The notes under the pieces: model-generated
What the model was told of the DNA's origin: nothing
Database searches by the model: none
The model's input: only the letters and a program-made list of their open reading frames with translations
Shown here: positions 48,460-49,811 of the stretch, one piece after another
Position numbering within the stretch: the first letter of the stretch is position 1
Layout of the letters: each line of letters opens with the position of its first letter
Position numbers and translations under genes: made by a program
From: Pirellulaceae bacterium
GTDB taxonomy: Bacteria; Planctomycetota; Planctomycetia; Pirellulales; Pirellulaceae
NCBI GenBank assembly: GCA_029243025.1
Contig: JAQWSU010000032.1
Coordinates: 62,001-126,000, forward strand
DNA: 64,000 nt
Reading direction: 5' to 3'

Positions 48460-49473
48460 TTAGAACGAGTTACCCATCGCTTCAGCAACTCGGCGACAAC
48501 GCTGCATTGTGTCCTCGAATTGCTCGAAAGTCAGGGATTGGTATCCATCACTCAGCGCCTTTTCCGGGTCGGGATGCACTTCAACAATTAACCCGTCAGC
48601 TCCCGCAGCAACGCTTGCAACCGACATTTCGGGCACCATACTCGCGTGGCCCGTACCGTGGGAAGGATCAACCACTATCGGCAAGTGTGTCTTCTGATGC
48701 AGATAGATAACGGAAGCTAATGGAAGTGTGAACCGGGTATGACTTTCGAAAGTTCGGATTCCCCGTTCGCAAAGCATGACGTTTGAGTTTCCCTCATTGA
48801 GCACGTATTCTGCGGCAAGCAGAAGTTCGTCAAGTGTGGCACTTGCACCTCGTTTTAGCAAAACGGCCCGATCACAATTTCCTACGGCCTCTAACAATCG
48901 ATAATTCTGCATGTTCCGAGCACCGATTTGCAGAACATCGGCGTATCGTGCGACCAAATCGACATCATCTGTCGAGACCACCTCCGTGACAACAGCCAGG
49001 CCCGTTTCTTCCCGCGCCGCAGCCAGTAACTTGAGCCCTTCTTCCTTCATGCCCTGAAAGCTGTAGGGGCTTGTTCGTGGTTTGAAAGCACCACCTCGCA
49101 GTGCCGTTGCCCCTGACGCACGAACAGCATGGGCCGTTTTAATAATTTGTTCTTCCGATTCAACACTACAGGGACCGGCAATCATCCCAATCTTGCCATT
49201 GCCAACGGTCAAGCTGCCAACCTTGATTGTCGTTGGCTCCGGTTTAACCTCGACGCTAGCAACCTTATAGGGAGCTAAAATGGGAACGACTTCCGACACG
49301 CCTGGTCCACTTTCCAGCGACTGACGCGTCTCCTCTCTTTTTTCGCCAATGGCCGCAATCACAGTTCGTTCCGTGCCAACAATCACATGGGCTTTCAAAC
49401 CCATTTGTTCGACACGTTCCACCATGTGTTCCACTTCGTTTTGCGACGCTCCGTGTTTCATTACAACAATCAT
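48460..49473 (-). CDS. aroF: 3-deoxy-7-phosphoheptulonate (DAHP) synthase, type I-beta with regulatory N-terminal domain
   Basis: A 337-residue enzyme that condenses phosphoenolpyruvate and erythrose-4-phosphate, the first step of aromatic amino acid synthesis. Residues 1-70 form a ferredoxin-like domain ([31 protein letters not shown]), as in Thermotoga-type enzymes, where it gives feedback inhibition by Tyr or Phe. The catalytic barrel contains [34 protein letters not shown] and [17 protein letters not shown] lies nine bases before the ATG. The 404-base upstream region holds a leader peptide and terminator, so the gene is probably controlled by attenuation as well. Confidence 0.94.
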
Positions 49474-49634: not shown

Positions 49635-49676
49635 AAAAAAGGCCCTGAGATCCGTTTTGGGTCTCAGGGCCTTTTT
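49635..49676 (-). terminator. Intrinsic terminator / attenuator hairpin in the aroF leader
   Basis: On the minus strand GGCCCTGAGA (49671-49662) and TCTCAGGGCC (49650-49641) form a perfect 10-bp stem over an 11-base loop, preceded by five A and followed by six T. It is the best intrinsic terminator in the window. It lies about 160 bases before the aroF ATG and 23 bases after the leader peptide stop codon. It can also serve the upstream gene ending at 49878, but the intervening leader peptide favours attenuation. Confidence 0.85.
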
Positions 49677-49698
49677 CGCTTCGGATGCAATTGGATCT

Positions 49699-49773
49699 CT
49701 ACAAAGCGCCTCCGGGCCCACGACCACGGCTCGTAAAGTAGAAAAACCAAAAGTATCGGAAGCAGTTTCTCAT
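49699..49773 (-). CDS. Aromatic-rich leader peptide of aroF (24 codons)
   Basis: The minus-strand frame starts at ATG 49773 and stops at TAG 49701-49699. Codons 5-13 encode F-R-Y-F-W-F-F-Y-F: eight of nine are aromatic, with all three end products represented. The remaining codons (T-S-R-G-R-G-P-G-G) are GC-rich and overlap a potential antiterminator arm. No Shine-Dalgarno is seen; the predicted transcript begins only a few bases upstream, so translation may be leaderless. An ATG at 49806 in the same frame is an alternative start. Comparable leader peptides control pheA and trp operons in enterobacteria. Confidence 0.72.
   Translation of the reverse strand: MRNCFRYFWFFYFTSRGRGPGGAL
49714..49725 (-). 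promoter_or_regulatory. Potential antiterminator 5' arm in the aroF leader
   Basis: GGTC (49725-49722) and GGGCC (49719-49715) within the last leader codons are complementary to GACC (49663-49660) and GGCCC (49671-49667), that is, to the 5' arm of the terminator. The resulting stem of 9 bp with a small internal loop excludes the terminator. A ribosome paused on the aromatic codons would leave this arm free; one reaching the stop codon would cover it. Confidence 0.6.
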
Positions 49774-49782
49774 GATGCACGC

Positions 49783-49811
49783 ATTATGATTGCCTTCGCC
49801 AAGCATTTCAA
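49783..49811 (-). promoter_or_regulatory. Sigma-70-type promoter of the aroF leader
   Basis: TTGAAA (49811-49806, five of six) and CATAAT (49788-49783, five of six) are separated by exactly 17 bases on the minus strand. The expected start is near 49776, three bases before the leader ATG. It lies inside the short gap after the cytochrome-like gene (ends 49878). Confidence 0.6.

Follow-up and report, generated by a model that had tools for sequence, protein, structure and literature searches.

A conserved aromatic leader-peptide attenuator predicted ahead of the DAHP synthase gene aroF in Planctomycetota

How do planctomycetes decide when to make the first enzyme of aromatic amino acid synthesis? 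The question is raised by the minus strand of a 64,000-nucleotide stretch of a Pirellulaceae contig (the window), where a promoter, a short reading frame crowded with Phe, Tyr and Trp codons and a GC-rich hairpin followed by a T-run precede the gene for a DAHP synthase, aroF. On comparative grounds, the predicted attenuator is real, widely conserved and mechanistically clear.

The aroF leader region

An earlier note, made from the letters of this DNA alone, had named a promoter, a 24-codon frame with aromatic residues at codons 5–13, GGTC and GGGCC segments, a stop codon and a hairpin with T6. All of these are present on the minus strand and correct to the base (Table 1). The promoter is sigma-70-like, and the terminator stem is a perfect helix of 10 bp (49671–49662 with 49650–49641) flanked by A5 and T6. 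The leader frame stays open further upstream, as a 67-aa ORF (49902–49699) that has an in-frame ATG within the promoter; the figure of 24 codons therefore depends on where the promoter is placed and on relatives. The aroF product scores 382.1 bits against TIGR01361 (cut-off 267.75). The 212-nt region folds better than 200 of 200 dinucleotide shuffles (z −4.65), a low energy that is mostly due to the terminator.

Table 1. Features of the aroF leader region, numbered from the first letter of the window
Feature	Position	Strand	Basis or detail
−35 element TTGAAA	49806..49811	(−)	sequence
−10 element CATAAT	49783..49788	(−)	17-nt spacer from −35; 9 nt before leader ATG
Leader peptide ORF, 24 codons, MRNCFRYFWFFYFTSRGRGPGGAL	49699..49773 (ATG at 49773, stop ends 49699)	(−)	sequence and relatives
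Putative regulatory codons 5–13, F-R-Y-F-W-F-F-Y-F	49735..49761	(−)	sequence; aromatic run in family orthologs
Weak possible hairpin, ACGA 49734–49731 with TCGT 49723–49720	49720..49734	(−)	sequence; site of the 1:2 protector hairpin of relatives
Predicted antiterminator 5′ arm (segment 2), GGTC-GT-GGGCC	49715..49725	(−)	78-nt fold pairs it with 49660–49671; register-specific pairing in 52 sequences
Segment 3, predicted antiterminator 3′ arm overlapping terminator 5′ arm, GGCCCTGAGACC	49660..49671	(−)	sequence, alignment, fold
Intrinsic terminator (segments 3:4), 10-bp GC-rich stem, T6	49635..49676	(−)	sequence; helix in 52-sequence alignment
aroF, type I beta DAHP synthase, 337 aa, predicted controlled gene	48460..49473 (ATG 49473)	(−)	TIGR01361

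Conservation and the leaderless start

Of 199 genomes of the family, 192 have a match to the AroF protein of the window if paralogs and KDO8P-synthase-like matches are included. Our family set comprised the upstream regions of 114 orthologs (68–100% identity; 30 loci and 84 regions), with the upstream regions of 16 paralogs of about 50% identity, among the matches listed, as a control. A leader was called where at least 4 F/Y/W fell within the best 9 codons and a terminator lay in the right place. By this rule, a leader with an aromatic run and an intrinsic terminator precede aroF in 81 of the 114 family regions, which are related and not independent rows, and in 36 of 45 genera; neither the reverse complements of the ortholog regions (0/114) nor the regions ahead of the paralogs among the matches listed (0/16) gave such a combination. 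A stricter scan with at least 5 F/Y/W in 9 codons, and with no terminator required, returned an aromatic ORF in 74/114 regions versus 5/114 reverse complements and a mean of 2.8/114 shuffled regions. The best 9 codons hold between 4 and 9 aromatics, exactly 4 in eight of the 81 family leaders, and the leader stop lies 20–35 nt ahead of the terminator in 67/81.

Leader and terminator were also found at 50 of 80 loci on other planctomycete contigs. Sixty-three of these 80 are not identical to any family row over 250 nt upstream, and 36 of the 63 were positive. The positives include loci of Gemmataceae (L087, L096), Isosphaeraceae (L103) and Phycisphaerales (L107, L108), and the element therefore extends past one order.

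Promoter placement is similarly regular. A −10-like box ends 5–10 nt before the leader start in 60 of the 81 family leaders, all 60 with a TTG 16–18 nt further up, and is absent from this position in the other 21. Of 100 non-redundant leaders, 58 have the near box, whereas three control windows of the same width gave 2, 3 and 7. Tetramers resembling a Shine-Dalgarno sequence precede 5/81 leader starts versus 54/81 aroF starts. Transcription typically begins 6–8 nt past a −10 box, and a start at that distance would fall at the AUG or no more than about 3 nt from it. Leaderless translation had been suggested in the earlier note; the promoter spacing backs this suggestion, and the leader is probably translated without a 5′ leader. 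The leaderless form is common, not universal, because some genera (e.g. g3, g48 and g68) have a TATAAT-like box further upstream.

Alternative pairing and rival readings

Helix statistics were collected from alignment A1, and they describe the subset that it holds: 52 of the 100 non-redundant leaders, hand-picked for alignable tails. Automatic selection required a terminator but took no account of antiterminator pairing. The terminator helix, thus selected for, is 90.8% paired over the 52 sequences and exceeds its shuffles on every measure, or all but 1 of 500. Between the leader tail and the terminator 5′ arm, 71.4% of cells are paired with 71 double-change cells, versus shuffled means of 64.9% and 37.4; sliding this antiterminator by 1–3 columns leaves 20.9–58.3% paired and 7–47 double-change cells. 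For two of the five antiterminator covariation measures the shuffles do at least as well (7 pairs with double changes versus 7.1; 24 pair types versus 25.0), and these are the two least inflated by relatedness. In 96 of 116 distinct leaders, which come from related rows, the arm is bound more strongly by the species' own leader tail than, on average, by the tails of other species (−18.6 versus −14.9 kcal/mol). The comparison bears out the attenuator reading of the earlier note in that the aromatic run is conserved, the terminator covaries and the antiterminator pairs far better in one register. That note had also specified a test in advance, namely whether the run and the two alternative stems are unconserved in relatives; the test was run, and non-conservation was not seen.

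A protector (1:2) hairpin, which the earlier note did not mention, is visible in many relatives, and its consensus form is missing in the window. Its helix is 58.0% paired, over its shuffles (50.7%) and matched by a slide of +1 (59.5%), and its register seems to vary between sequences. A shuffle test of leader-tail hairpins gave a mean z of only −0.39 over 97 sequences (59 below zero), and the 1:2 hairpin is not claimed from that test.

Folding of the window RNA reproduced the mutually exclusive antiterminator and terminator structures that had been proposed from the sequence. In the prediction without a ribosome, the free leader forms other local structures and the terminator arm is left unpaired. 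The arm is paired to the leader tail at 51–61% with a stalled ribosome and at 8% when the ribosome is absent; with a ribosome at the stop codon, terminator formation reaches 87%. After removal of the aromatic codons and the ribosome footprint, the predicted antiterminator forms in the remaining 78-nt fold; 28 of 200 shuffles do as well as this fold, which is thus not unusually stable and cannot count as evidence by its stability alone. A stalled ribosome gives tail pairing over more than 30% of the arm in 89–95 of 100 leaders, depending on the stall codon, and placing the ribosome at the stop codon lets the terminator form in 97 of 99. If the ribosome is left out, the prediction still favours antiterminator pairing in 63 of the 100; default termination without translation is therefore predicted for the window, not for most species. 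The predicted antiterminator is formed from the end of the leader ORF and overlaps the terminator 5′ arm, which is the arrangement that marks the trp/phe type.

The element is very probably a ribosome-mediated transcription attenuator of this classical type, controlling aroF. Comparison and folding support that assignment with conserved anatomy, alternative pairing in a specific register, promoter spacing and mutually exclusive folds; we infer that translation begins on a leaderless end, that ribosomes stall for each of Phe, Tyr and Trp, and that read-through changes. RNA polymerase would start at the leader AUG or no more than about 3 nt from it, and a ribosome would load on the leaderless 5′ end. 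With charged Phe-, Tyr- and Trp-tRNA all plentiful, this ribosome would reach the stop codon and cover segment 2, upon which the terminator (3:4) would form and transcription would stop before aroF. Shortage of one charged tRNA would instead stall the ribosome in codons 5–13 and leave segment 2 free for segment 3; the 2:3 pairing would then replace the terminator, and aroF would be transcribed.

A hairpin that starts about 200 nt past the stop codon of the upstream gene and about 160 nt before the aroF ATG could also be the terminator of that upstream gene, with aroF transcribed from its own downstream promoter and the aromatic ORF a coincidence. We consider this highly improbable, given that leader and terminator are conserved jointly before aroF, that the antiterminator pairing is register-specific and that the promoter keeps its spacing to the leader ATG in most of the family leaders. 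Moreover, among the 109 other loci with flanks of 540–1500 nt, no more than 6 have a detected homolog of the upstream gene ahead of aroF, three of the six without a leader, so the terminator belongs with aroF. It is likewise most unlikely that the product of the conserved ORF is a functional small peptide that works in trans, instead of or besides the ORF serving as a sensor. Peptide-level constraint speaks for such a product (pN/pS 0.34 for the half of the leader that holds the aromatic run, from 13 pairs of relatives with 20 synonymous and 35 nonsynonymous differences), as does the role in trans that accessible portions of PMC7298713 describe for a Sinorhizobium leader peptide. However, the genera share aromatic content, length and a GC-rich tail without sharing a defined peptide sequence, and the antiterminator accounts for the tail; the same pN/pS value is consistent with translation of an attenuator leader. 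Terminator/antiterminator switches are in general also used by riboswitches and leader-binding proteins, but a different sensor of this kind is scarcely credible here: an Rfam scan of the window returned no family at its gathering score, RNAalifold found the terminator alone in the alignment, and the conserved feature upstream of it is the codon run.

Which amino acids the attenuator would sense is a closer matter. Phe, Tyr and Trp are all present in 58 of the 81 family leaders, even though proteins generally contain less Trp than any other amino acid, and both Phe codons and both Tyr codons are in use. From this codon content, one leader appears to sense all three. A real attenuator might nevertheless respond mainly to Phe, with Tyr and Trp codons as bystanders, a role reported for the Tyr codon in aroR of Corynebacterium. 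Such a reading fits the dominance of Phe codons (338 Phe, 138 Tyr and 81 Trp over the 81 family leaders) and the finding, in the part of PMC11802643 available, that Tyr availability was without effect on the Corynebacterium operon. Set against it are the co-occurrence of all three kinds despite the rarity of Trp and their presence in four further leaders, before type I alpha DAHP synthases. A mainly Phe-responsive leader is thus possible, if rather unlikely. For the attenuator with three inputs, the broader implication is that many planctomycetes probably switch on the first enzyme of aromatic synthesis through a leader and a hairpin when Phe, Tyr and Trp are short.

Known systems and elements before other genes

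The element resembles pheL-pheA of proteobacteria (Rfam RF01859, Phe_leader) in combining an aromatic leader with a terminator and an antiterminator. It differs in the gene controlled, which is pheA there, and in input, which is Phe only there. RF01859 itself gave a weak full-length match (26 bits, E 0.031) that does not reach the gathering score of 55. The ilvGMEDA leader responds to several end products, the branched-chain amino acids, and so shares one leader with several end-product inputs, these being branched-chain and not aromatic. Attenuation is named for this operon in an excerpt of PMC1183508. The aroR-aroF system of Corynebacterium glutamicum shares the target, and the excerpts available describe leader-peptide attenuation of aroF for it (Neshat et al. 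2014, as described in PMC11802643 and PMC4046766). There too a leader peptide with aromatic codons precedes a DAHP synthase gene, but its codons are Phe-Tyr-Phe only and it reportedly responds to Phe, not Tyr, whereas the planctomycete leaders belong to another phylum and carry 4–9 aromatics, of three kinds in 58/81. Attenuation has also been proposed for the Acholeplasma uORFC-13-1 motif upstream of aroF, likewise an upstream ORF with promoter elements and a terminator before a DAHP synthase gene; as far as the source was available, that motif differs in having a ribosome binding site and a U-run encoding one Phe or more, and in occurring only in Acholeplasma and environmental sequences (PMC8632094). 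The trpL attenuator RNA of Sinorhizobium meliloti begins at the ATG of its leader ORF and is leaderless, as we predict here, but it is a Trp leader of trpE(G) in an alphaproteobacterium (PMC7298713, in part). Predicted trp attenuators are discussed for Chlamydia in an excerpt of PMC3937554, and the main text of a 2010 survey of premature terminators mentions neither planctomycetes nor aroF (PMC2965389).

No planctomycete attenuator was found in the open-access literature searched, a scope that leaves most subscription papers outside and in which some results were listed in part. Within that scope the novelty that the earlier note saw in a planctomycete example stands, and it does not extend to leader-peptide attenuation of a DAHP synthase gene as such, already described in Corynebacterium and proposed in Acholeplasma. 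As far as searched, what is new is the phylum, the input of three amino acids and the conservation of a leaderless start; the mechanism is classical and attenuation of aroF is known. A conserved leader would offer a handle on transcription-translation coupling and leaderless mRNA initiation in Planctomycetota, and with a natural leader that has three inputs one could ask cleanly whether different stall codons combine as an OR gate.

The 33 of 114 family orthologs called leader-negative include every row of genera g36, g37, g38, g46 and g11. Some negatives are threshold effects (L006 and L140, with a leader seen by eye and uncounted); L016 has a leader by eye without a terminator, also uncounted, and the upstream regions of L120 and L166 are short. 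The losses that span whole genera look real, since the terminator scan came up empty there as well. At least 3 DAHP synthase-family matches occur in 27 of the 33 leader-negative genomes versus 29 of the 81 leader-positive ones (Fisher p 9e-6, ignoring phylogeny and counting KDO8P-synthase-like matches too), which gives a lead that leader absence is tied to more DAHP synthase-like genes. We also scanned the first 1500 bases of oriented loci, part of the gene included for short loci and PF00425, for an aromatic leader with a terminator before other genes. None was found before PF00425 (trpE-like, chorismate-binding) genes (0/30 loci, 30 of 53 matches), prephenate dehydratase (0/25, all 25 matches) or type II DAHP synthase (0/18, all 18 matches), and one of 25 prephenate dehydratase reverse complements was positive by chance. 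The type II loci (L266–L283), none with an aromatic leader, come from 18 of 30 chosen genomes; 29 of the 30 lack this aroF ortholog, and the other is that of the window, itself without a type II match.

A covariance model built from the element (R1) and searched against 246 genomes of the phylum with strict filters gave 23 places in 20 genomes, 10 of them preceding aroF. The model is partly driven by the terminator, as its second match in the window (23.1 bits) falls on the opposite strand of the terminator region. Because bare terminators score, weak matches (E about 1e-4) need a leader of their own to count and places not before aroF are leads; the Phe-run, Leu, Ile/Val and f57 leaders described below each carry cognate codons.

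Four loci of a distant family, f57 (L289, L290, L292 and L296), a set selected via the model, have a leader with Phe, Tyr and Trp and a terminator directly before type I alpha (AroG-like) DAHP synthases, and TIGR00034 matches adjoin these leaders. They provide a lead that the same control may act on a non-orthologous enzyme in this family. A leader scan before type I alpha DAHP synthases, which have a match in 49 of the 246 genomes, was positive at 1 of 30 loci (L330). At L293, a Phe-run leader (GRFFFFSNF) without Tyr or Trp and a terminator precede an apparent chorismate mutase/prephenate dehydratase-DAHP synthase fusion, a gene cut by the locus end; the leader thus holds Phe alone at an enzyme linked to Phe synthesis.

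We lean slightly towards a wider proposal, in which Planctomycetota would gate entry into the shikimate pathway by a conserved leaderless attenuator with three inputs, shortage of Phe, Tyr or Trp alone being sufficient. The device would track the role of the enzyme: it would have arisen again before the unrelated type I alpha DAHP synthases in one family, appear with a Phe run at the chorismate mutase/prephenate dehydratase fusion and tend to be absent where there are more DAHP synthase-like genes.

Leaders of another composition were also among the places found. Leu-rich leader-like ORFs with terminators stand before leuA at L295, L299 and L306, an Ile/Val-rich one with a terminator before citramalate synthase at L305, and a further Leu-rich one with a terminator at L304. 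At gathering scores, Rfam returned tRNAs only on these five loci. The Leu- and Ile/Val-rich leaders are putative further attenuators in Planctomycetota. Four of the 23 places have no assigned target gene (L288, L301, L302 and L304); at L288, a leader-like ORF, MKNYLLLNYLYLYLYILRKGRRGDGLS, and a terminator lie near seven tRNA genes.
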